From: Allorhizobium paknamense
GTDB lineage: Bacteria > Pseudomonadota > Alphaproteobacteria > Rhizobiales > Rhizobiaceae
Reading direction: 5' to 3'
DNA length: 64,000 nucleotides
Assembly (NCBI RefSeq): GCF_030815125.1
Contig: NZ_JAUSWH010000009.1
Location: 1-64,000, forward strand
Part shown: positions 5,345 to 51,024 of the stretch, in pieces
Layout: the number at the start of each line of letters is the position of its first letter
Numbering within the stretch: the first letter of the stretch is position 1
The notes under the pieces: generated by a model
Told to the model about the DNA's origin: nothing
Seen by the model: the letters and a program-made list of their open reading frames with translations, nothing else
Databases searched by the model: none
Made by a program: the position numbers and the translations under genes

Positions 5345-6220
5345 ATGGAACAGATCTTTGACGCCAACCTGCTTGCCCGCAACCGGGAGCGCGCCTTTAT
5401 CCGGCATGGCGGCGAAGCGGGCTTCCTGCTCGACATCGTCGCCGAAGAACTGGCGGAACGGCTGGCCGTGGTGGAACGGCATTTCGAGGATGCGGCAGAA
5501 TTGCACGGGCTGGATGGCCGCGTGGCCGAAACCTGCAAACGCACCGGGCGGATCGGCCGATTGCAGCGGATCGAGACGAGTGACGTCTTTTCCAGCCCCG
5601 GCCTGCCGGTTACCGAGGCACCGCTGGAAACGCTGCCGCTTGTACCGCAATCGATCAATCTGGCACTGTCGCCGCTGTCGCTGCATCTGGCCAATGATCT
5701 GCCCGGCCTGCTCATCCAGATCCGCCGTGCCCTGAAACCGGACGGCCTGCTGCTGGCCGCCGTGGCAGGCGCGGGAACGCTTGGCGAACTGCGCGACGTG
5801 CTGCTGTCCACCGAGGCGGAATTGACCGGCGGCGCAAGCCCGCGCGTCATTCCCTTCGCCGATGTCCGCGATCTGGGCGGGCTCCTGCAACGGGCAGGTT
5901 TTGCACTGCCCGTGGTGGATGTCGAAGATTACACGGTGCGGTATGATTCGCTTTTTCCGCTGATGCAGGACCTGCGCGCCATGGGCATGGCCAATCCTCT
6001 GCTTGGCCGCAGCCGCAAACCGATCAGCCGCGCCTTTTTCCTGCGCGCCGCCGAGCTTTACGCCGAGCGCTACAGCGACCCCGATGGCCGCATCCGCGCC
6101 ACCTTCTCGATCATCTACGTCTCCGGCTGGGCACCGGATGCCAGCCAGCGCAAGCCACTGAAACCCGGCTCCGCCACCACGCGGCTGGCGGATGTGCTGC
6201 GCCGGGCGGAAGACCTATAA
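5345..6220 (+). CDS. SAM-dependent methyltransferase, NDUFAF5/BioC-like
   Basis: 291 aa. It begins IFDANLLARNRERAF and contains LSLHLANDLPGLL (about residue 112) followed by a LKPDGLLLAAVAG segment, a pattern shared with mitochondrial NDUFAF5, which is needed for complex I assembly, and with BioC-type methyltransferases. The canonical GxGxG motif I is weak here, as in many members. It is divergent from comF. The stop codon TAA at 6218-6220 directly abuts a family B element. A respiratory-chain assembly role is inferred from homology only. Confidence 0.8.
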   Translation: MEQIFDANLLARNRERAFIRHGGEAGFLLDIVAEELAERLAVVERHFEDAAELHGLDGRVAETCKRTGRIGRLQRIETSDVFSSPGLPVTEAPLETLPLVPQSINLALSPLSLHLANDLPGLLIQIRRALKPDGLLLAAVAGAGTLGELRDVLLSTEAELTGGASPRVIPFADVRDLGGLLQRAGFALPVVDVEDYTVRYDSLFPLMQDLRAMGMANPLLGRSRKPISRAFFLRAAELYAERYSDPDGRIRATFSIIYVSGWAPDASQRKPLKPGSATTRLADVLRRAEDL

Positions 6221-6345
6221 TACCAAGGCTCGAAGATGCTAACGCATCCTCGCCTTGAAAGAATTTCGAATATCTCAAATGCACCAATGGCTTGAGATAT
6301 TCGAAAGGGGAATACGATGAGTCATTTTCAATGACTCATCCTATA
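6221..6345. repeat. Family B triple-hairpin element, copy 1
   Basis: About 125 bp starting TACCAAGGCTCGAAGATGC and ending in TATA. Three inverted repeats follow one another: CAAGGC..GATGC/GCATC..GCCTTG, TCGAATATCTCAA/TTGAGATATTCGA, and ATGAGTCATT/AATGACTCAT. Closely similar copies are at 33897-34020 and 50900-51024. It begins right after the stop codon at 6220 and runs up to the T-tract of the secA terminator. Confidence 0.85.
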
Positions 6346-15262: not shown

Positions 15263-17719
15263 ATGCGGATTGCGCGGAAATTGCCGCTTTTCGTTTGTGC
15301 GGTGACGATCCTTTCAGTGGCAGCGGCCAGTTGGGCCGCCTTGCTGCAAAGCTCGGCGCTGGTCAGGCAGGAAGTGATGCAGAAGCTCGAGGCCACCGCC
15401 GATGGACGGCGCAACGAGGCCCAGCTTTATTTCGAGAATGTCATTACCAATCTGCGCGCCTTTGCGAGCATTTCCACCACCGGCGAGGCTCTTTACAAAT
15501 TCAAGGGCGACTGGCGCTATCTCGGCCAGACGCCCAAGGAAACGCTGGTCGACCGCTATATCACCAACAATCCCAACCCCGCCGGGCAGCGCCTGATGAT
15601 GGATACGGCGCGCGTCGACACCTATGACAGCAACCATACGAAATTCCATCCGCTGATGCGCACCGCGCTCCAGCAATATGGCTATTCCGATATCTTCCTG
15701 ATCGACCCCAAGGGCAACATTCTCTACACCGTGCAGAAAAACGGCGAATATGCCGCAAACCTTGCCGATCCCGCCCTGAAAGACGGGCCGATTGCCGCCG
15801 TCTACAACCAGGTGGCCAAGAGCGACGACAAGATGGCCTATGCCCTGTCGGATTTCACCACATCACAGCTGACCAAGCAGGTCGTGGCCTATCTGGCAAC
15901 GCCGCTCTTCATGGGCGACCTGAAGCAGGGCGTGCTGGTGGTGGCCATTCCGGCAGACCGGCTGAGCGCCATGTTCGCCAATCGCACCGGTCTGGGACAG
16001 ACGGGGGAAACCGTTCTTCTCGATTCCGCAAGCCGTATGGTCACCGAATCGGCGCTGACGCCGGACAACGACACGCTGAGCCGCAAGATCGACACACCCA
16101 TCGTGGCGGCAGCGCTCAAGGGCGACAAGGCCTCCGGGCAGATGGAAGGCTACCGCGACATGGAAAGCTATGCCGCTGCCGTGCCGCTCTCCTTTGCCGG
16201 TCATACCTTTGCCGTGGTCGCCTTGATGGATGAGCGGGAAGCCCTCGCCAGCATCGGCCAGTTGCGCAACACCGTGATGCTGATCGCGCTCGGTCTGCTG
16301 ATCATCGCCCTCACCGGCGCCATCCTGTTCTCCCGCAGCCTCACCAGCCCGATCCGCGATCTGGTGGAGCAGATGATGCGGCTGGCCGGTGGTGATACCG
16401 CCGTGACCTTCAAGGGTGAAAGCCGCAAGGACGAAATCGGCGACATGGTCCGCTCCGTGGCCGTCTTCCGCGATGCGGCCATCGAGAAAAATCGTCTCCA
16501 GCAGGAGGCGGAGCATGACCGCAAGGCAACCGAAATCGAACGTCAGGCCCGCGAAGCCGCCCGCAACGAGGAAACAGCCCGTCTGCAGCAGGCCGTCGAC
16601 ATTCTGGGCGCAGGGCTCCAGCGCCTGGCCGCCGGTGACCTGACCACCACCATCGACACGCCTTTCATGGAAGGGCTAGACCGGCTGCGCACCGACTTCA
16701 ACGATTCGATCCGCCGTCTGGCGGGCACGGTGCAGACGCTCGCCGGCAACGCCGCCTCGATCAACGGCACCGCCTCCAACATGGGTGCGGCCACCCATGA
16801 CCTCTCGCGCCGCTCGGAACAGCAGGCAGCCTCGATCGAGGAAACCTCCGCCGTGATCAGCCAGATCATGGAAGCGATCCGCGCCTCGACGGAACGGGCT
16901 GCCAATGCCCGCCGCATGGTGGCCGATGCCAAGCTCTCCACCGAAAAATCCGGTGAGATCGTCGGTTCGGCCGTGGATGCCATGGGCCGGATCGAGGAAG
17001 CCTCTGCGGCAATCTCGCAGATCATCAATGTGATCGACGAGATCGCCTTCCAGACCAACCTTCTGGCGCTGAATGCCGGTGTCGAGGCCGCCCGCGCCGG
17101 TGAGGCAGGCAAGGGTTTTGCCGTGGTGGCGCAAGAGGTGCGCGAGCTGGCGCAGCGTTCCGCCAAGGCTGCAAAGGAAATCAAGGATCTGATCAGCAAA
17201 TCCGGAGAAGCCGTCAAAACCGGCGTCAGCCTGGTGCGCAATACCGGTTCGGCCCTGGGCGACATCGCCACCAAGGTGGCCGACATCAACGAGGAGATCA
17301 GTTCCATCGCCGAAGCTGCCGGGGAGCAATCCGAGAGCGTGCGCGAAATTTCCACCGCCATCCGGCAGATGGAAGAGGTTACCCAGCAGAACTCGCAGAT
17401 GGCGGAACGCACCAATTCCGACATGGCACGGCTTTCCAAGGATGCCGAGGCCCTTTCGGCCCTGGTGGCGCAGTTCCGTCTGGATGCACAGCAGGCAGCG
17501 TCCCTCACCCCGCCGGTTGCTCCCGTCTCGAACCCGGCCCCGATGGCGCCCAATGGCGCCCAGCCGGTGAAAAAGCGCTCGCCCTTCGTCAAGCCCGCCA
17601 GCGAGACCAATCGCCCGAGAACCTCGCCCGCCCGAGCGCTGATGGACAAGCTGACCACCGGCTTCCAGAAGTCGAGCAATGGATCGGCGCAGGCCGAGGC
17701 GAATTGGGAAGAGTTCTAG
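15263..17719 (+). CDS. Methyl-accepting chemotaxis protein with Cache-type sensor and NWEEF tail
   Basis: 818 aa transmembrane chemoreceptor. TM1 is about residues 7-29, then a large periplasmic Cache-like sensor (about 35-325; [15 protein letters not shown] is the PAS-like core), TM2 about 334-354, and a HAMP domain starting at [14 protein letters not shown] second HAMP-like stretch leads to the signalling domain with the hairpin tip [24 protein letters not shown] in pieces around residue 600. The last five residues are NWEEF, like the CheR-tethering pentapeptide NWETF of enterobacterial receptors. The ligand is unknown. It sits between hbd and etfA on the opposite strand. Its TAG stop is the left end of a family A element. 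Confidence 0.95.
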
Positions 17720-17784
17720 AGCAATGTCCCGAGAAAAGTGTAGTCACGGTTTTCCGTCCGGAAATGCGTAAAAACAAAAGCTTA
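17717..17784. repeat. Family A element, copy 3
   Basis: TAGAGCAATGTCCCGAGAAAAG runs to the core ACGGTTTTCCGTCCGGAAATG and then CGTAAAAACAAAAGCTTA. It is inverted relative to the 12880 copy. Its left TAG is the stop codon of the chemoreceptor gene, and its right TA is shared with the next palindrome. Confidence 0.82.
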
Positions 17785-17824
17785 GAGGACATCCGGTGAA
17801 CCCGTGTTTACCGGACGTCCTCTA
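17783..17824. repeat. Palindrome TAGAGGACATCCGG...CCGGACGTCCTCTA (family G)
   Basis: 42 bp with a near-perfect stem around GTGAACCCGTGTTTAC. A partial copy of the core (ACATCCGGCGAACCC / CACCGGATGT) is at about 29064-29094. It shares a TA with family A on the left and with the 268-bp element on the right. Confidence 0.75.
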
Positions 17825-18090
17825 GGGTCAAAACTCAATCAGGATGGGTGTTCTGCAAGGCGTATTTTGTGTCTGAGTAGGAGGAAAGGTGCAGGAAATG
17901 CCGATCATTTTCAAACCTTTCCGACGCCCGCAGGCGCAAAATACGCCTTGCCCGAAGGGTTGAGCGGGATGGGCCGACTGATTGCGAACAATGCTCGACA
18001 AGGCCTCAGGGCCTTGCCTTGCGCTTGTTCGCGGCCATTCAATCCCATCCCGTTCAACAGAATACCCATCCTGATTGAGTTTTGACCCTA
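17823..18090. mobile_element. 268-bp MITE-like element (family D), copy 1
   Basis: Bounded by TAGGGTCAAAACTCAATCAG and its inverse complement, with a terminal inverted repeat of 33 bp (one G-T wobble in this copy). The interior is a set of nested inverted repeats: CAAGGCGTATTTTG/CAAAATACGCCTTG, TTGAGCGGGATGGG/CCCATCCCGTTCAA and CAAGGC..CCTTG. It has no protein-coding capacity. The second copy (25040-25307) has the same length and orientation and differs at two positions only. The TA ends suggest TA target duplication of the IS630/Tc1 kind. Confidence 0.85.
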
Positions 18091-18167: not shown

Positions 18168-19097
18168 TCAGAGCGCCTTTTCAAGCTCCGGCAGGGCTTC
18201 GAAGATATCCGCAACGAGACCGTAATCGGCAACCTGGAAGATCGGCGCTTCCTCATCCTTGTTGATGGCGACGATGACCTTGGAATCCTTCATGCCCGCC
18301 AGATGCTGGATAGCGCCGGAAATGCCGCAGGCAATGTAGAGTTCCGGGGCAACCACCTTGCCGGTCTGGCCAACCTGCCAGTCGTTCGGTGCATAACCGG
18401 CATCGACGGCAGCGCGCGAGGCACCCACCGCAGCCCCCAGCTTGTCGGCCAGCGGCAGGATCACTTCCTTGAACTTGTCCGAGGAACCAACGGCACGGCC
18501 ACCCGATACGATGATCTTGGCCGAGGTCAGTTCCGGACGCTCGGACGCCGACAGCGCATCCGATACGTGGCTGGAAAGACCCGGATTGGCCACAGCCGCA
18601 ACGGCTTCCACCGCTGCCGAACCACCCTCGCCCGCAGCGGCGAAGGAGGCCGTGCGCACGGTGATGACCTTCTTGGCATCGGTGGACTGCACCGTCTGAA
18701 TGGCATTGCCGGCATAGATCGGACGCTTGAAGGTATCGGCAGAGACGACCTCGATGATTTCCGAAACCTGCATGACATCGAGAAGGGCGGCAACACGCGG
18801 AGCCACATTCTTGCCAACCGTGGTGGCAGGCGCGATGATCACGTCATAGGCACCGGCCAGCGACACGATCAGGGCCGCCAGCGGCTCTGCCAGGCTGTGG
18901 GCGTAGTCGGCGCCATCGGCCAGCAGCACCTTGGAAACACCGGCAAGCTTTGCGGCGGCATCGGCAGCAGCCTGGGCGCCGGACCCGGCCACCAGCACAT
19001 GCACATCGCCACCGATCTCAGTGGCTGCCGTCAGCGCCTTGGCGGTCTGGTCGGAAACCGACGCGTTATCGTGTTCAGCGAGAAGAAGAATAGCCAT
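18168..19097 (-). CDS. etfA: Electron transfer flavoprotein subunit alpha (EtfA)
   Basis: 309 aa. EtfA carries the FAD of the ETF dimer, which passes electrons from acyl-CoA and other dehydrogenases to ETF-ubiquinone oxidoreductase. The C-terminal FAD domain shows [37 protein letters not shown] and [19 protein letters not shown], the conserved signature. The N-terminus ([12 protein letters not shown]) is typical. etfB ends 23 bp upstream on the same strand. A strong terminator follows, so etfBA ends here and hbd, normally next, is not in the same transcript. Confidence 0.96.
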
Positions 19098-24380: not shown

Positions 24381-24938
24381 TTGACGATTGCAGTCTCACC
24401 ACAGTCCTTGCCGGCGCTCGTCCTGAACGCTGATTACAGGCCACTGAGTTATTATCCCTTGTCGTTATGGTCCTGGCAGGACACGATCAAGGCGGTGTTT
24501 CTTGACCGGGTCAACATCATTGCCGAATATGATTATTCGGTGTGTTCACCCAGTTTCTCCATGAGGTTGCCCAGCGTCGTCAGCCTCAAGACCTATGTGC
24601 AGCCGACGCGAAACCCCGCCTTCACCCGCTTCAACGTTTTTCTTCGCGACAAGTTCGAATGCCAGTATTGCGGCTCCCGCGATGATCTGACCTTCGATCA
24701 TGTCATCCCCCGGGCCCATGGCGGGGAAACCACCTGGGAGAATGTCGTGGCCGCCTGCTCGCCCTGCAATCTGCGCAAGGGCTCGAAGCTTCCCCGGGAA
24801 GCGGCCATGTTCCCGGCGCAGAAACCCTACCGCCCGACCGTTCAGGATCTCCACAACAACGGCCGCCTCTTCCCGCCCAACTATCTGCATGAAAGCTGGG
24901 TGGACTATCTCTACTGGGATTCGGAACTGCAGCCCTAA
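24381..24938 (+). CDS. HNH endonuclease
   Basis: 185 aa. The HNH domain is in the middle: two zinc pairs (CQYC about residue 94 and CSPCN about 132) flank FDHVIPRAHGG and the Asn of WENVVAACS. The N-terminal ALVLNADYRPLSYYPLSLWSW and C-terminal KPYRPTVQDLHNNGRLFPPNYLHESWVDYLYW match a conserved rhizobial housekeeping-type HNH protein rather than a phage enzyme. The start is a TTG: AGGAG lies 6 bp upstream of it, and the ATG 5 bp earlier opens only the two-codon frame ATGCCTTGA. The TAA stop is also the left end of an element. Confidence 0.87.
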   Translation: MTIAVSPQSLPALVLNADYRPLSYYPLSLWSWQDTIKAVFLDRVNIIAEYDYSVCSPSFSMRLPSVVSLKTYVQPTRNPAFTRFNVFLRDKFECQYCGSRDDLTFDHVIPRAHGGETTWENVVAACSPCNLRKGSKLPREAAMFPAQKPYRPTVQDLHNNGRLFPPNYLHESWVDYLYWDSELQP

Positions 24939-24977: not shown

Positions 24978-25041
24978 TGTTCTTGTTTTAACGCATGTCG
25001 TTATCGCAAAACCGCTGCACACTTTTGCGCGACATGCTCTA
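24976..25041. repeat. Family A-prime element, copy 1
   Basis: TATGTTCTTGTTTTAACGCATG leads to TCGCAAAACCGCTGCACACT and TTTGCGCGACATGCTCTA. The layout is as in family A, but the stem is ATGTCG../CGACAT. The copy at 29163-29215 is inverted. It shares TA ends with both neighbours. Confidence 0.78.
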
Positions 25042-25307
25042 GGGTCAAAACTCAATCAGGATGGGTGTTCTGCAAGGCGTATTTTGTGTCTGAGTAGGAG
25101 GAAAGGTGCAGGAAATGCCGATCATTTTCAAACCTTTCCGACGCCCGCAGGCGCAAAATACGCCTTGCCCGAAGGGTTGAACGGGATGGGCCGACTGATT
25201 GCGAACAATGCTCGACAAGGCCTCAGGGCCTTGCCTTGCGCTTGTTCGCGGCCATTCAATCCCATCCCGTTCAACAGAACACCCATCCTGATTGAGTTTT
25301 GACCCTA
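25040..25307. mobile_element. 268-bp MITE-like element (family D), copy 2
   Basis: Same length and orientation as 17823-18090. I find two differences: A for G in the TTGAACGGGATGGG arm, and C for T in the CAGAACACCC arm. Both turn wobble pairs of copy 1 into Watson-Crick pairs, so this copy has perfect inverted repeats. It is flanked on both sides by other TA-bounded elements with shared TAs. Confidence 0.87.
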
Positions 25308-25409: not shown

Positions 25410-25513
25410 CTGCATAATTCCTTAAATCGGAATCGATTTAAGGTGAAAATTATGCAGCAGCTTTAAAGTGCTACAGCGTCCTTTGTGCGTTTGATAAAAC
25501 GCACGGCGCTGTA
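25408..25513. repeat. Family F element, copy 1
   Basis: TACTGCATAATTCCTTAAAT with its complement ATTTAAGG..AATTATGCAG, then CTACAGCG..AACGCACGGCGCTGTA. The second copy is at 44730-44839, and a partial copy of the left half is at about 46598-46645. With it the chain 24936-25513 holds six elements. The remaining 55 bp to dsbB hold nothing I recognise. Confidence 0.78.
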
Positions 25514-25568: not shown

Positions 25569-26072
25569 TCAAGGCAGGCGTTTGGCGGAGAAAAAGGCAA
25601 AGCCGGCCAGGAAGAGCGAAACGATTGCATTCCATCCGGCGAAGGAAATGCCAAGCACCCTCAGTGCTGCATCCGTGCAGGAGGGGCCATGAATGGTGTT
25701 GAGTTGTTCGAGAATATTGCCCGTACCGGTGAAGCCCGCACCTGCGGTGGCCGAACAGGCCGAGGGTCCCTCCCAGAACTTCCATTCCACTCCGGCGTGA
25801 TAGACGCCTAGCCCCATGCTGACCAGCATGATGAGCCCGAGCAGCATCAGCACAAGCTTCAGCACCTTCGGCGGCAGCTTCGGTGCGGCCAACAGCGCCA
25901 CGAGGCCGATGGCAGCGCCGATATAGAAGGGTTTGCGCTCCAGCAGGCAAAGCTCGCAAGGGATATAGCCGCCCAGATATTCGAAGGCGAGCGCCGAGCC
26001 GACCACCACTGCCATGCCAAGGGTCATGGCGGCGAGCGGCAGAACGGGACGGGAAAGCGAAGGCGTGGACAT
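25569..26072 (-). CDS. dsbB: Disulfide bond formation protein B (DsbB)
   Basis: 167 aa, four membrane helices. DsbB reoxidises periplasmic DsbA and passes electrons to quinone. The first redox pair is Cys39-Glu-Leu-Cys42 in YIPCELCLLERKPFY. The second pair lies in the periplasmic loop (PSACSA and PSCTDAA). The start is the ATG at 26072; the upstream extension is not membrane-like. It follows the YqaA gene on the same strand with a 23-bp gap and is probably cotranscribed. Confidence 0.92.
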   Translation of the reverse strand: MSTPSLSRPVLPLAAMTLGMAVVVGSALAFEYLGGYIPCELCLLERKPFYIGAAIGLVALLAAPKLPPKVLKLVLMLLGLIMLVSMGLGVYHAGVEWKFWEGPSACSATAGAGFTGTGNILEQLNTIHGPSCTDAALRVLGISFAGWNAIVSLFLAGFAFFSAKRLP

Positions 26073-26095
26073 GATATAAACTCCCGACAAGCTTC

Positions 26096-26686
26096 TCAAT
26101 GGGCGAGAAGCCGGTAGGCGATATACAACAGGATCAGCAGGATGGCACCTGCCGCCGCGATCTGGCCCAGCCTCTTCTCGATAAAGTGACGGATCGGCTC
26201 GCCATAGCGGCGCAGCAGCCAGGCCAGCAGGAAGAAACGTCCGCCACGGGCCACGATGGCCGACACGATAAACAGCCAGAGATTGACATGCGCCACACCG
26301 GACAGGATCGTCACCACCTTGATCGGCGGCAGATGGGCAAGGCCTGAGGTGATCAGCAGCAGCACCACCGTCTCGTAGTCCACCGACAGCCGCAACTGGT
26401 CGAAGGCTTCCGCCTTGCCGTAGAATTCCAGAATGGGCCGGGCAATGCTTTCATAGGCATAATAGCCGAGGAACCAGCCGGCGACGCCCCCAAGAACCGA
26501 GGTAACGGTGGCCAGCAGCGCATAGCGCCAGGCCCGGTCTGGCCGCGCCAGCGCCATGGGCAGGAAGAGCACATCGGCGGGCACAAGAAAAATCGAGCTT
26601 TCCACGAAGGAGATGACACCAAGCCAGACCTCCGCCGATTTGCGGGCGGCCAGCGACATGGTCCAGTCATAAAGACGGCGCAGCAT
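26096..26686 (-). CDS. YqaA family (VTT/DedA-type) membrane protein
   Basis: 196 aa with about five hydrophobic segments. SFVESSIFLVPADVLFLPMALARPDRAWRYAL and VTSVLGGVAGWFLGYYAYE, then GLAHLPPIKVVTILSGVAHV, match the YqaA branch of the VTT (DedA) superfamily, some members of which move lipids across membranes. Substrate and role are not known. It is the first gene of the pair with dsbB. Confidence 0.87.
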   Translation of the reverse strand: MLRRLYDWTMSLAARKSAEVWLGVISFVESSIFLVPADVLFLPMALARPDRAWRYALLATVTSVLGGVAGWFLGYYAYESIARPILEFYGKAEAFDQLRLSVDYETVVLLLITSGLAHLPPIKVVTILSGVAHVNLWLFIVSAIVARGGRFFLLAWLLRRYGEPIRHFIEKRLGQIAAAGAILLILLYIAYRLLAH

Positions 26687-29164: not shown

Positions 29165-29215
29165 GGGTGTGTCGCGCAAAAGTGTGCAGCGGTTTTGCGA
29201 TAACGAGATGCGTTA
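29163..29215. repeat. Family A-prime element, copy 2
   Basis: GTGTCGCGCAAAAGTGTGCA and GCGGTTTTGCGATAACGAGA are the inverse of the element at 24976-25041. It shares TAs with family A on the left and family C on the right. Confidence 0.72.
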
Positions 29216-29317
29216 GAGCGCTTTTCGATCCGATTGAATCAGATCGGCGCTCTAACCTTTTATTTTTGAAGCATAATTTTATCGATCCTCGTTTCACTCC
29301 GGTCGAATTATGCTCTA
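29214..29317. repeat. Family C element, copy 2
   Basis: TAGAGCGCTTTTCGATCCGA then TTGAATCAGATCGGCGCTCTA, an A/T-rich spacer, and AAGCATAATTTT with GAATTATGCTCTA at the far end. It has the same orientation as 31021-31124 and is inverted relative to 13753-13860. Confidence 0.82.
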
Positions 29318-29328
29318 AATCAAGAAGG

Positions 29329-29384: not shown

Positions 29385-31040
29385 ATGTTTCTGCCCCCCG
29401 GCGCTTCGTCCTACGCCACGCTCTGCGAGAGCTTTTCCTGGGATATTCCCTCCGATTTCAACATGGGCCGGTCGGTGGCCGATGCATGGGCGCGGCATGA
29501 GCCGGATCGCGTCTGTCTCAAGCATTTCTCACCCGATGGCAGGCATTGCAGCCTGACCTATGGCGAGTTGACCCGGGCTTCGAATGCGCTTGCCCATTCG
29601 CTCTCCAGGCTTGGCATCACCGCAGGTCAGCGTGTGGCCCTGCTGCTGCCGCAGGGGTTTGAGACGGCGATTGCCCATGTCGCCCTCTACAAGATGGGCG
29701 TCATTGCCTTGCCGCTGGCGCTGCTCTTCGGCATGGAGGCGCTGGAATACCGGCTGGCGGCGGCGGAAGCCTCGGCCATCATCACCAACGCCTTCGGCTT
29801 GCAGCGGCTTTCAGGCATTCGCGGCAGGCTGCCAGCGCTGGCCCATGTCGTCAGCACGGATGGCGCCGAGGATGACACCCTCTCCTTTCAGCGACTCGTG
29901 CAGGAGGGCGATCCGGCCTTCCCGGGCATTGAAACGGGGCCGGACGATCCGGCGCTGATGATTTTCACCTCCGGCACCACCGGTGCGCCGAAGGGGGCGC
30001 TGCATGGGCACCGGGTGCTGGCCGGGCATATTCCCGGCTTTCAACTGGCCCATGGCGGCGCACCGCAAGCCGGTGACTGTATCTGGACACCCTCCGACTG
30101 GGCCTGGGCCGGTGGCTTGCTGAACGTGCTGATGCCAGCGCTGCTGCTTGGCATTCCGGTCGTCTCCTCGCCCGGGCAGAAGTTTGATGCCGCGACCGCC
30201 TATCGCATTCTGGAAGAGATGCAGGTACGCAATGCCTTCATCCCCCCCACCGCGCTCAGGCTGATGAAAAGCGTGGAACGCCCGCTGGAGCGCTACCGGC
30301 TCTGCCTGCGCTCCATCACCTCGGCGGGCGAAGCCCTGGGCCGCGAGACCTATGAATGGGTCAAGGCAACCCTTGGCCTTACGCCCAATGAATTCTATGG
30401 CCAGACGGAATGCAATTTCGTGCTCTCCTCGGCAGCCGAGCTTGGCGTCAGCAAGGCGGGCGCCATCGGCAAGCCCGTGCCGGGGCACCGCGTCGCCGTC
30501 ATCAATGACAAGGGCGAGGAAGTGCCGCCCGGAGAGACGGGGCAGATTGCCATTGCCCGGCCAGACCCGGTGATGTTTCTCGGATATTGGCGCGACGAAG
30601 AGGCCACCCGGCGAAAATTCATTGGCGGCTGGCTGCTGACCGGCGATCTCGGCCGCGCCGACCGCCAAGGCTATATCGAATTCTTCGGCCGGGATGACGA
30701 CGTCATCACCTCCTCCGGCTACCGCATCGGCCCGACGGAAATCGAGGATTGCCTGGGCGGCCATCCCGCCGTGAAGCTGGCGGCGGTCATCGGCAAGCCG
30801 GACCCGCTTCGCACCGAGATCGTCAAGGCCTTCGTCATCCTGCGGGAGGGCTATCAGCCCGACCAGACGCTCGCCCTCCAGCTTTCGGACTGGGTGAAGA
30901 ACCGGCTGTCCATGCACGAATATCCGCGCGAGGTGGAATTCATCGACGAAATTCCCCTCACCACCAGCGGCAAGGTCATCCGCCGGCTGCTCCGGGACCG
31001 CCAATCTCAAGGTTTATGTTTAGAGCGCTTTTCGATCTGA
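29385..31040 (+). CDS. AMP-dependent acyl-CoA synthetase
   Basis: 551 aa. It activates a carboxylic acid as acyl-AMP and then acyl-CoA. The AMP-binding loop is MIFTSGTTGAPKGALHGH (about residue 191), followed by SAGEALGRETYEW, YGQTECNF and LLTGDLGRAD. The catalytic Lys of the C-terminal domain is in TTSGKVIRRLLR (about 529). The sequence resembles the short/medium-chain group, but the substrate is not known. The last six or so residues (LERFSI) and the TGA stop come from a family C element that begins at 31021, so the natural C-terminus has been replaced. AGAGG precedes the start. Confidence 0.9.
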   Translation: MFLPPGASSYATLCESFSWDIPSDFNMGRSVADAWARHEPDRVCLKHFSPDGRHCSLTYGELTRASNALAHSLSRLGITAGQRVALLLPQGFETAIAHVALYKMGVIALPLALLFGMEALEYRLAAAEASAIITNAFGLQRLSGIRGRLPALAHVVSTDGAEDDTLSFQRLVQEGDPAFPGIETGPDDPALMIFTSGTTGAPKGALHGHRVLAGHIPGFQLAHGGAPQAGDCIWTPSDWAWAGGLLNVLMPALLLGIPVVSSPGQKFDAATAYRILEEMQVRNAFIPPTALRLMKSVERPLERYRLCLRSITSAGEALGRETYEWVKATLGLTPNEFYGQTECNFVLSSAAELGVSKAGAIGKPVPGHRVAVINDKGEEVPPGETGQIAIARPDPVMFLGYWRDEEATRRKFIGGWLLTGDLGRADRQGYIEFFGRDDDVITSSGYRIGPTEIEDCLGGHPAVKLAAVIGKPDPLRTEIVKAFVILREGYQPDQTLALQLSDWVKNRLSMHEYPREVEFIDEIPLTTSGKVIRRLLRDRQSQGLCLERFSI

Positions 31041-31124
31041 TTGAATCAGATCGGCGCTCTAACATTTTATTTTTGAAGCATAATCTTGTCGATCCTCGTT
31101 TCACTCCGGTCAGATTATGCTCTA
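31021..31124. repeat. Family C element, copy 3
   Basis: TAGAGCGCTTTTCGATCTGA to AGATTATGCTCTA. Its left part supplies the last codons and the stop of the acyl-CoA synthetase. Its right end, read on the minus strand, is TAGAGC, whose TAG is the stop codon of the CelD-like gene. It therefore fills the whole space between two convergent genes. Confidence 0.85.
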
Positions 31125-32399
31125 ACCACTGCGTGAAAATTTGCTCATCACCTTGTCGCGCAGAATCCGGGCCAGATTGCGGGTATTGCGGTAAAGATGC
31201 AATTTCACCGAGGCTTGGCGCACCTCCCGGTCGGCATTTGGCCTGAGGCCGATCACCAGCGTCCCCATATCCTCGCGCTCCTGCCAGAAGCGGCTCATGA
31301 TCGGGTGGTCCGGCACGGCACAGCTATCGGTGCGCAGAATGTTGGCGTCATCCAGATGCCAGCGGGTCAGTTCCGCCACGAGAAGCTTGCCGGGAGAATA
31401 GCGTGCAAGGCTCTCGTCATAGGCCGTCTTCCACGTATAGGCTTCCGCGCCCATCAGGAAGACCACCATGGAGGCAATGGTGCGTCCATCGAGGTGGAGG
31501 GAATGAATACGCACCGCGTCGCGCTCGGCCAGATTGGTGATTGCCTCGCGGGCAAAAGCGGCGCGCAGCCGGTCGCTGATCAGGGCGCTGCGCTTGCGGC
31601 CTTTCCAGCCGCTCGCCTCCAGCGCCAGGAAATCCTCCATGCCGAGCCGCACCTCTTCCGGCTGGCGGGCAACGTGATAGCCCAGAGGCCCAAGCTTCTC
31701 CAACTGCCGGTATTGCCGGCGCATTTCCCGCACATGCGCCTTGGAAATCGAGGCCGCCAGATAGGTATCGCCTTCCTCCAGGCTTTCCAGCATGGGGCGC
31801 TGCTGCCGGTTGGTAACCAGAACCGGCAGATCGCGGCTGATGACGAGCGCCTTGATCAGCCGGGCCACGGGGCCGTTCAGGCGCAGATCCGGCAGCACCA
31901 GCACCGGCGGCAGGGCGGCTTCGGGCGCCGCCAAGCCGTTCAGCAGGTTATCGATCGTCTCGGCTGCATCCTCGGCATCCACCAGCGGCGTGCCCAGCGG
32001 TCCGAACGGGTTGGACCAGGCGCGGATAATGGACGGGCCAACCGCAAAGCCCGGCTTTTCCACTGAAAACGGCAGGAGCAGGCGGATACGGCTGCGATTG
32101 TCGCCATCGTCGCGGATCAGCGCCATGCGCACCTGCCGCTCTTCCAGACGCGGAATGGCAGGCGCCAGAAAGCGCGCGGAAAAGAAGACGTTCGGCTCCA
32201 GCGCCCGGTTGGTCAGGAAATCCATTTCCCGCTCGAGATCGTAGCTTGCCTGCCGCGGATAAAGCCAGAGATGCCGCCCGGGACGGCCCACGGCAATCTG
32301 GATATCGGCCGCCGGACGGTCAGGACCCACGGCGTCTCCCAGGGCAGCCACCCTGCCTGCCTGCCGGTCCGGAAAACTGACGTTCTCGCTTTGGCTCAT
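31122..32399 (-). CDS. CelD/BcsL-like GNAT acyltransferase
   Basis: 425 aa, cytoplasmic. It matches the Acetyltransf_6 (CelD) family linked to cellulose and other exopolysaccharides. HVREMRRQYRQLEKLGPLGY then FLALEASGWKGRKRSAL is the signature, followed by the acetyl-CoA fold with MVVFLMGAEAYTWKTAYDESLARYSPGKLL in parts. It is one base downstream of a flippase gene on the same strand, so the pair is probably one transcript serving a surface polysaccharide. The polymer is unknown. The TAG stop is the end of a family C element. Confidence 0.85.
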   Translation of the reverse strand: MSQSENVSFPDRQAGRVAALGDAVGPDRPAADIQIAVGRPGRHLWLYPRQASYDLEREMDFLTNRALEPNVFFSARFLAPAIPRLEERQVRMALIRDDGDNRSRIRLLLPFSVEKPGFAVGPSIIRAWSNPFGPLGTPLVDAEDAAETIDNLLNGLAAPEAALPPVLVLPDLRLNGPVARLIKALVISRDLPVLVTNRQQRPMLESLEEGDTYLAASISKAHVREMRRQYRQLEKLGPLGYHVARQPEEVRLGMEDFLALEASGWKGRKRSALISDRLRAAFAREAITNLAERDAVRIHSLHLDGRTIASMVVFLMGAEAYTWKTAYDESLARYSPGKLLVAELTRWHLDDANILRTDSCAVPDHPIMSRFWQEREDMGTLVIGLRPNADREVRQASVKLHLYRNTRNLARILRDKVMSKFSRSG

Positions 32400-33813: not shown

Positions 33814-33896
33814 GCAATTTCACCGGATGATTTCAAGGATCAACGGCCAGTCTTGCCACCATAGGGTTAACAAAAGCTGATTATATAAGCCTCTTA

Positions 33897-34020
33897 TACC
33901 AAGGCTCGAAGATGCTAACGCATCCTCGCCTTGAAGGGATTTCGAATATCTCAAATGCATCAGGGGCTTGAGATATTCGAAAATGGAATACGAACTGCCA
34001 TCTTCGATGACTCTTCGTAT
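33897..34020. repeat. Family B triple-hairpin element, copy 2
   Basis: TACCAAGGCTCGAAGATGCT to CTCTTCGTAT. The first two hairpins are as in the 6221 copy. The third reads ACGAACTGCCATCTTCGATG as in the 50900 copy. It separates the flippase gene's 5' side from the end of tlpA. Confidence 0.83.
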
Positions 34021-44731: not shown

Positions 44732-44839
44732 CTACATAATTTTATCCTTAAATCGGAAGCGATTTAAGGATAAAATTATGTAGTAGATTTAAAGTGTTAC
44801 AGCGTCCTTTGTGCGTTTGATAAAACGCACGGCGCTGTA
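44730..44839. repeat. Family F element, copy 2
   Basis: TACATAATTTTATCCTTAAA with the complement TTTAAGGATAAAATTATGTA, then TTACAGCGTCCTTTGTGCGT and AAAACGCACGGCGCTGTA. The second half is nearly identical to that of 25408-25513. It ends 4 bp before the tusA stop codon. Confidence 0.8.
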
Positions 44840-49767: not shown

Positions 49768-50899
49768 CGACAGGGAGAACGGCGAGCGCGTGATTCACGT
49801 GCCGCTTGGTGAGCGTGCCTATGACATTCTGATCGGCGAAGGGCTGATCGCCCGCGCAGGCGGCGAGATTTCCACCCGCATCAAGGGGCGCAAGGCCGCC
49901 ATCATCACCGACGAGCATGTCGGCGCGCTCTATCTCGAACCCTTAATGGACAGTCTGCAGGCCGATGGCATCGAGACGGTGTCGCTTTCGCTCCCCGCAG
50001 GCGAAAAGACCAAGAGCTTCGATCACCTGCAAAAGGTCTGCGATGTACTTCTGGAAGCCCGCATCGAGCGCAATGATACGGTGATTGCGCTGGGCGGCGG
50101 CGTGATCGGCGACCTGACCGGCTTTGCCGCGGGCATCGTTCGGCGTGGCGTGCGCTTCGTACAGATGCCGACCTCGCTGCTCTCGCAGGTGGATTCCTCC
50201 GTGGGCGGCAAGACGGGCATCAACACCCGTCACGGCAAGAACCTTGTCGGCATTTTCAATCAGCCCGATCTCGTGCTGGCCGATACCGGCGTGCTGAACT
50301 CGCTGAGCCCCCGCGAATTCCGCGCCGGCTATGCGGAAGTGGCGAAATATGGCCTGATCGACCAGCCGGATTTCTTCGCATGGCTGGAAAAGAACTGGCG
50401 CGAGGTGTTTTCCGGCGGCGCGGCCAGAACCGAGGCCATTGCCCGCTCCTGCCAGGCCAAGGCCGATGTGGTGGTGGCGGACGAGCGGGAAAACGGCCGT
50501 CGCGCCCTGCTCAATCTCGGCCACACCTTCGGCCATGCGCTGGAGGCCGCAACACAGTATGACAGCGCCCGCCTCGTGCACGGCGAAGGGGTCGCCATCG
50601 GCATGGTGCTGGCGCATGAATTTTCCGCCCGCCTCAATCTCGCAAGCCCGGATGACGGCAAGCGGGTGGAAGCGCATCTGCGGGCGGTGGGCCTGCCCAC
50701 CCGCCTATCGGATATTGAAGGCGAGCTTCCGCCACCCCACATCCTGCTGGACGCCATGGCACAGGACAAGAAGGTCAAGGCCGGCAAGCTTACCTTCATT
50801 CTCACCCACGGCATCGGCCAGTCCTTCGTTGCGGATGATGTGCCGCCCTCCGAAGTCCTGTCTTTCCTCACCGACAAGATGGCCTCAGCGAACATATAA
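49760..50899 (+). CDS. aroB: 3-dehydroquinate synthase
   Basis: 379 aa. It converts DAHP to 3-dehydroquinate with NAD and a metal ion. The NAD site is ALGGGVIGDLTGFAAGIV (about residues 109-126), followed by QMPTSLLSQVDSSVGGKTGIN. The metal ligands lie in GYAEVAKYG, the LLNLGHTFGHALE stretch and LVHGEGVAIGM. It is coupled to aroK upstream. Its TAA stop at 50897-50899 directly abuts a family B element. Confidence 0.96.
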   Translation: MADDRENGERVIHVPLGERAYDILIGEGLIARAGGEISTRIKGRKAAIITDEHVGALYLEPLMDSLQADGIETVSLSLPAGEKTKSFDHLQKVCDVLLEARIERNDTVIALGGGVIGDLTGFAAGIVRRGVRFVQMPTSLLSQVDSSVGGKTGINTRHGKNLVGIFNQPDLVLADTGVLNSLSPREFRAGYAEVAKYGLIDQPDFFAWLEKNWREVFSGGAARTEAIARSCQAKADVVVADERENGRRALLNLGHTFGHALEAATQYDSARLVHGEGVAIGMVLAHEFSARLNLASPDDGKRVEAHLRAVGLPTRLSDIEGELPPPHILLDAMAQDKKVKAGKLTFILTHGIGQSFVADDVPPSEVLSFLTDKMASANI

Positions 50900-51024
50900 T
50901 ACCAAGGCTCGAAGATGCTAACGCATCCTCGCCTTGAAGAAATTTCGAATATCTCAATTGCGTCAGGGGCTTGAGATATTCGAAAAGGGAATACGAACTG
51001 CCATCTTCGATGACCCTTCGTATA
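50900..51024. repeat. Family B triple-hairpin element, copy 3
   Basis: TACCAAGGCTCGAAGATGCT to CGATGACCCTTCGTATA. It is closest to the 33897 copy in its third hairpin. It fills the space between the convergent aroB and bolA ends. Confidence 0.85.

Follow-up and report, generated by a model that had tools for sequence, protein, structure and literature searches.

Two copies of a 268-bp element lie in the stretch of DNA that we analyzed, the first 64,000 nucleotides of contig NZ_JAUSWH010000009.1 of Allorhizobium paknamense (hereafter the window), and each is flanked by protein-coding genes on both sides (Table 1). The original prediction had described these copies as MITE-like, equal in length and orientation, different at two positions, bounded by 33-bp inverted repeats and accompanied by TA, and all of this was borne out. 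Both copies are 268 bp long and read in the same orientation, the differences lie at positions 142 (G/A) and 241 (T/C) of the element, TA is present at the left and right end of each, and the 33-bp terminal inverted repeats pair at 32 of 33 positions in copy 1, where T241 mispairs, and at 33 of 33 in copy 2. The interior had been read as four nested inverted repeats. The predicted arrangement is instead a terminal stem (positions 1-33 with 236-268) around two imperfect arms that stand side by side (34-128 and 138-235) and a mini-hairpin (129-137), and this interior, earlier treated as featureless, proved to be the most interesting part of the element. Among relatives the outer pair of the mini-hairpin is C-G or T-A, and the conserved loop blocks of arm B are located around AATGCTCGA and TTGCGC. 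The element was also said to lack coding capacity; ORFs do cross it at some sites, but no reading frame is kept among the members because their lengths vary by single bases, so that short length and absence of a preserved frame agree with a MITE.

Table 1. Features of the two window copies, their neighboring genes (named from the translation only) and loci of a related type in other genomes
Feature	Position	Strand	Remarks
MCP-like gene, left of copy 1	15263-17719	+	
MITE copy 1	17823-18090	+	268 bp, full length, TA-bounded, CTAA (YTAR) site
Left terminal inverted repeat, copy 1	17823-17855	+	Outer 19 bp are TAGGGTCAAAACTCAATCA
Hairpin arm A, copy 1	17856-17950	+	Element positions 34-128; conserved internal loops
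Mini-hairpin CCCGAAGGG, copy 1	17951-17959	+	9 nt; element positions 129-137
Hairpin arm B, copy 1	17960-18057	+	Element positions 138-235
Right terminal inverted repeat, copy 1	18058-18090	+	T241 mispairs
etfA-like gene, right of copy 1	18168-19097	-	
HNH-nuclease-like gene, left of copy 2	24381-24938	+	
MITE copy 2	25040-25307	+	268 bp; differs from copy 1 at two positions
Terminal inverted repeats, copy 2	25040-25072 and 25275-25307		
Hairpin arms, copy 2	25073-25167 and 25177-25274		
Mini-hairpin, copy 2	25168-25176		
DsbB-like gene, right of copy 2	25569-26099	-	
Third-type loci	L133:2895-3168; L237-L239, L241-L243		273-275 nt

The genome of A. paknamense contains 23 full copies at 97-100% identity, 15 half copies and a lone additional MITE end at C1:393593, and the repetition is thereby far in excess of chance. 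All 15 half copies sit at contig ends, and therefore the assembly breaks inside the repeat. Among the copies of exactly 268 bp (n = 21; the pairwise counts omit two copies of 267 nt) the mean pairwise difference is 4.2 with a range of 1 to 11, and 12 of the 21 variable sites are private to one copy; several copies are changed at the conserved loop positions 70 and 104. The near identity of the window copies had been taken to point to recent movement or gene conversion. The first half of this view stands, in that the element is a TA-bounded, MITE-like unit that was recently amplified. Gene conversion between the window copies was rejected: each of them is also two differences away from other genomic copies, and as the distance between the pair is no smaller than that to several further copies there is no sign of local conversion.

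Copy number varies strongly among the relatives, as the original prediction had expected of a mobile element. Of the 63 species in the genus, 8 have a clear match (E <= 1e-35), and the number of forward matches at this level ranges from 1 to 23 in a matching genome; at 1e-20, 50 of the 63 genomes gave no match and the 23 full copies were the sole matches in A. paknamense itself. These counts are lower bounds, as 31 candidates were scored per genome under strict filters. A DNA search of 60 genomes (A. paknamense included) returned 13 with a match, and the copies in G026 are 91-94% identical. Shortened derivatives were also seen, in Allorhizobium undicola (L050/L122) and at L052, L053, L056 and L105, the smallest of which has 37 bp and little beyond the two ends. 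In Allorhizobium sonneratiae the apparent 492-bp and tandem forms (L063, L057) are on scaffolds, include N and resemble joins made in scaffolding within the repeat; the 492-bp version was accordingly set aside as two copies that the assembly had probably joined.

TA is found at both ends of all 23 full copies of the genome and always in a YTAR context, with a pyrimidine before the left TA and a purine after the right TA, while 77 of the 1081 TA sites in the window have this context. YTAR flanks recur in the members from the named genomes (left 26/26, right 25/26) and in those from the order and class (left 31/32, right 30/32), and 27 of the latter 32 start and end with TA. A second feature is the presence of GCTC on the left or RAGC on the right, a motif found at the edges of the genome's palindromic repeats, at 20 of the 23 copies as compared to 14 of the 77 other YTAR sites in the window (binomial p 1.6e-12); the element thus prefers sites where an older palindromic repeat has a TA at its edge. 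The original prediction had proposed to look for presence and absence between strains, and absence was observed in relatives: at C1:705500 (L022) the element is missing from eleven of them, which have a short, variable spacer where the flanks meet and no exact junction. This site is the one that aligned across the junction, among the matches listed, when the joined flank pairs of 5 of the 23 sites were compared with 63 genus genomes.

The window holds other palindromic repeats of 41-125 nt (29213-29318, 31020-31125, 6220-6344, 33896-34020, 50899-51023, 25419-25513 and 44745-44839), which may belong to RIME or ABC mosaics. They had been called clearly diverged, and this was right in part, with 88-95% similarity among copies of the 106-nt and of the 125-nt repeats. 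The edge motifs GCTCTA and TAGAGC are frequent in the window and resemble the ends of an IS630 of the same genome, TAGAGCGCGTCC, and the palindromic repeats may be IS630-type MITEs themselves as well as landing sites. The element shares with the REP/RIME/Bru-RS-type repeats of Rhizobiales a palindromic, intergenic and TA-edged character and often abuts such repeats, but is longer, with 268 bp. IS711/IS6501 of Brucella is described as duplicating the TA of YTAR and preferring palindromic repeats (Bru-RS) (PMC2266754), and the placement of our copies in YTAR and at repeat-edge motifs is similar to it by target; IS711 differs in being autonomous.

The TA ends had led to the suggestion of an IS630/Tc1-type transposase encoded elsewhere. 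That the enzyme would be encoded elsewhere was a fair suggestion, but the elements that carry the MITE ends belong to the IS5 family. A search for PF13358 (IS630-type) in the A. paknamense genome gave four matches; in a single case the two ends could be read, and they are TAGAGCGCGTCC, while one match is cut by a contig end and two are weak. An IS630/Tc1 driver was rejected on the grounds that this readable copy does not carry the ends of the MITE. TA duplication alone does not separate IS630 from IS5, because IS711 has been reported to duplicate TA in YTAR (PMC2266754). In the A. paknamense genome, a search for the end of the MITE yielded C10:17278-18123, an 846-bp IS5-family element with the left end TAGGGTCAAAACCCAATCA, identical to that of the MITE at 18 of 19 positions, and with a right end identical at 14 of 17. 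One end of an 842-bp element in G019 agrees at 18 of 19 positions, and one end of an 853-bp element in G072 agrees at 19 of 19 with the outer 19 bp of copy 1. Further IS5-family elements were found on contig C34 of A. paknamense (851 bp) and in G009 (845 bp), and all five are flanked by TA and YTAR. The original prediction had proposed to look for an IS whose ends start with the same 30 bp. The IS5-family elements match over the outer ~19 bp at one end, and none was found in the A. paknamense genome with both ends matching the MITE.

The transposase of the C10 element matches NF033580 (transpos_IS5_3), a model named for the IS5 family and not for the IS427 group, with 130.7 bits for the first frame (cut-off 110) and 89 for the second frame alone, and also PF13340, PF13586 and PF01609 (DUF4096/DDE). 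Its frame is split at AAAAGGGGGG, which may be a programmed frameshift or damage, and two overlapping frames are present in the C34 and G072 elements. In a description of the IS427 group of Paracoccus (IS1248, ISPaes1 and others), these IS have 832-865 bp, inverted repeats of 13-21 bp, 2-bp duplications (one with 4) and in some cases a frameshift motif (PMC3281130). Our five elements (C10, C34, G019, G009 and G072) resemble this group in their length of 842-853 bp, their TA ends, their IS5 transposase and, in C10, C34 and G072 where the frames were read, in their split or overlapping frames. The MITE itself has no transposase frame, and what it has in common with the four IS compared is the outer ~19 bp. 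Blastn against these four found the ends alone above chance, so that the interior as a piece of an IS was rejected; by this comparison the MITE is not a deletion derivative of them.

A search with NF033580 of 23 MITE-bearing genomes found a match in 13 and no match in 10. We inspected 30 loci from these 13 genomes, at most three per genome, and compared the IS end with the MITE end of the same genome. The two are within 3 of 20 positions in G100 (TAGGTCAT...) and G318 (TAGGCTCA...), where MITE and IS share unusual ends (17/20), and within 4 in G049 and G141, while nine genomes are at least 6 away. Taken by their ends, targets and transposase matches, the IS5 family and its IS427 group are well supported as the candidate driver.

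The fold of the interior was analyzed in an alignment of 18 elements (A1) that were selected manually, with the R. alvei/lemnae type and most near-duplicates omitted. Its consensus of 97 pairs comprises the terminal stem, the two arms and the mini-hairpin. Covariation of the kind expected for a structured RNA was obtained, with 53 of the 97 pairs altered on both sides as compared to a mean of 28.8 in shuffles, and 96.0% of the cells are paired against a shuffle mean of 83.9%; neither value was reached by any of 500 shuffles. Sliding the partner by one base lowers the pairing to 44-48%. The alignment was made without structure, yet the structure was predicted from the alignment itself. For a wider set we used the first 40 of the 93 rows of a second alignment (A3; forward, at least 133 bits), which was fitted to the covariance model, and in it 18 of 74 unpaired and 54 of 194 paired positions are at least 85% conserved, which puts loops and pairs at a similar level. 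Length varies little as well: the best matches measure 266-272 nt in 31 of the 32 order and class members of at least 133 bits, and 286 in the remaining one, in a count of best-scoring model matches that favors full-length ones. Other lengths occur, namely elements of 37 and 205 bp and model matches of 174-193 and 276-328 nt. The alignments show a predicted fold that is kept by pair changes on both sides while the sequence drifts, and together with the length of ~268 nt it is conserved, over many bacterial families, far beyond what would be expected for a MITE. The bacterial MITEs Chunjie and QMITE2 are, by their description, also short, gene-less, bounded by terminal inverted repeats and stable in predicted folding (PMC10969869), as the A. 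paknamense MITE is. Chunjie copies span 178 to 235 bp within one genome according to the same source (PMC10969869), whereas our family combines its narrow length range with both-sided pair changes and with exchanged ends.

This exchange became apparent when ends and interiors were compared separately. In the other families of the order, DNA matches cover the interior alone and the ends differ. The elements of R. alvei and R. lemnae have ends of the A. paknamense family at 95-98% identity and an interior that is only 43-48% alike. The clearest case of exchange is the pair of R. alvei and G085, whose elements are identical at 185 of 237 inner columns but at either end agree in no more than 10 of 17 positions. 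An IS5-family fragment in G020 has an end that differs from the G085 end, TAGGGCCGATCGACATTCAGG, at 2 of 21 positions. In six of eight order-level elements compared, the ends are 41-68% and the interiors 61-68% alike; L176 and L178 show the opposite trend (ends/interior 73/55% and 84/49%). A third type, which is 273-275 nt long and whose ends are TAGAGCCGTTCATTT or a close variant, is present in G005, G061, G064 and G090, and the element of Neorhizobium sp. JUb45 is also of this type, with the end TAGAGCGGTTCATTG. The third type has the same plan and fold and has blocks in common with the MITE family, such as GGGCCGCCTGATCGC and CAACAGAAC. By these pairwise identities, ends and interior evolve separately and the ends can be exchanged.

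The covariance model (R1) was also used to determine how widely the family is distributed. At an E of 1e-5 it matched 61 of 297 genomes in the order (A. paknamense included), and at E <= 1e-35, above the reverse-strand background, it matched 29 of the 297; four of these 29 (A. paknamense, G037, G055 and G058) had supplied sequences to the model. The class sample gave 11 of 289 genomes and the phylum sample 15 of 398 (A. paknamense included, with some genomes shared). All of these are lower bounds, because few candidates were scored per genome (6 for order and class, 4 for phylum) and the filters were strict. Scored on the wrong strand, true full-length members reached 62.8-123 bits (order and class loci, leaving out L188 with 190 nt and L199 with 164 nt), and therefore matches below ~125 bits show geometry and not homology by themselves; as matches of ~60-123 bits are indistinguishable from geometry alone, our conservative counts use E <= 1e-35. 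Outside the class, G705 (L245) and G965 (L244) contain possibly homologous elements, 271-273 nt in length, that follow the plan of the MITE family and have the ends TAAGAAC (TAAGAACCTGTTC / TAAGAACGTGTTT).

The reading that we favor, and consider probable, is that of an IS427-type MITE with an old folded interior of ~268 bp, which carries the ends of different IS and whose fold aids its transposition. The outer ~19 bp would be the ends used by an IS5-family transposase of the IS427 group, and the common ends and targets suggest that the transposase of separate ~850-bp elements moves the MITE in trans, with insertion presumably into the TA within YTAR and with a preference for the TA at the edge of an older palindromic repeat. 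By comparison of the members, the interior is an old ~268-bp unit whose fold is retained by changes on both sides of its pairs and that is found with the ends of different IS. Most likely the folded DNA, either as a cruciform or as a one-strand hairpin at the replication fork, would bring the two ends together, and the element would thereby be well suited to the transposase that recognizes these ends. The copies, their target, the ends in common with IS, the fold with its both-sided changes, the length, the distribution and the end exchange were all observed; movement in trans, DNA as the selected form and the service of the fold to transposition are what we infer from these data.

A wider version of the same idea can be put forward tentatively, as a possibility that we consider less likely than not. 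It supposes a long-lived mobile lineage of the Pseudomonadota in which the selected unit is a folded DNA shape of ~270 nt rather than a gene. Such a lineage would persist by replacing its outermost 17-20 bp with the ends of whichever IS is active in its host (the IS427-type, a second IS5-type and the third, TAGAGCCGTTCATTT), and would transpose via a folded single strand or a cruciform that pairs its ends.

The same IS427-driven MITE could also have a fold without function, if the arms corrected each other at replication (template switching in a quasi-palindrome) so that a single event would alter both partners of a pair. Among 48 comparisons with 84-90% identity, the number of pairs changed on both sides is 5-13 as compared to 0.7-2.8 expected from independent change, and both-sided changes are at least as numerous as one-sided ones in 36 of these 48, which share ancestry; this excess fits selection on the fold as well as mutual correction of the arms, and the rough balance of G-U and A-C in the 18-sequence set described below would also suit correction. 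Correction should, on the other hand, erase internal loops, and the loops stay, with the conserved unpaired positions of the 40 model-fitted members given above. Moreover, 7 of the 14 comparisons at 90% identity or above show one-sided changes only, and therefore a double change in one step is not the rule in recent divergence. We regard a fold explained in this manner as unlikely.

An additional step down in probability, and in our judgment rather improbable, is a mobile structured RNA gene or a regulatory RNA on the strand shown, which has in its favor the strong covariation, the very stable fold and the conserved loops. Selection on one RNA strand should give more G-U than A-C mismatches on that strand. 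In the 18 sequences, which were aligned without the model, 91 pairs are shared by the predictions for the two strands, and on these the ratio of G-U to A-C is 25:24, which speaks against RNA. In the same set the pairs predicted from the forward strand only give 77:25 and those from the reverse strand only 26:98, skews that are as expected because the pairs were chosen by one strand. The 40 model-fitted sequences give 117:75 on 90 shared pairs, which would favor RNA, 132:106 on 100 pairs with a Watson-Crick majority and 185:68 on the pairs of the model; the counts in this wider set lean to the forward strand, though model fitting itself favors that strand. Similarly, 22 of 23 copies of A. paknamense fold more stably in the forward direction, but over 60 sequences (one of which carried an added base) the energy difference between forward and reverse has no constant sign. 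The orientation relative to genes reading into the element, determined with a crude ORF caller, is 12:12 and so without preference, and Rfam at the gathering score returned no family for the element or for 15 further loci, with sub-threshold matches only. Because the ratio of 25:24 becomes 117:75 in the wider model-fitted set, we grade selection at the level of DNA rather than RNA as likely and not as proven. A sub-threshold Rfam match to the Brucella sRNA CI27 (21.8 bits, gathering 59.8) at 17709-17871 covers the palindromic repeat that lies beside copy 1.

Palindromes useful to the host (terminators, or supercoiling or nucleoid sites) that spread by gene conversion and not by transposition would be in keeping with the position of both window copies between convergent genes, but we hold this to be very unlikely, as the 23 copies of the genome are convergent in 7 cases, divergent in 6 and tandem in 10 by the crude ORF caller, are located at unrelated YTAR sites and include one locus at which the eleven relatives lack the element. 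Least credible of all is a MITE driven by IS630/Tc1, for which the TA at both ends and the IS630-family matches in the genome could be cited, given that the readable IS630 has TAGAGCGCGTCC and it is the IS5-type elements that have the ends of the MITE.

We found no description of the family among the titles and abstract beginnings listed for open-license PMC, and the six end sequences, searched there as letters, occurred in unrelated work only. MITEs are usually viewed as short-lived scraps of IS that are defined by their ends and whose interior is immaterial. The A. paknamense family would reverse this view, as its interior appears to last and its ends to change. If this is true, a classification of MITEs by terminal repeat lumps unrelated elements together and separates related ones, and selection of a DNA fold for mobility becomes directly testable. 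The covariance model can be used to annotate a repeat family that it matches in 39 of the 123 sampled genera of the order at an E of 1e-5, and in 23 of the 123 at 1e-35.
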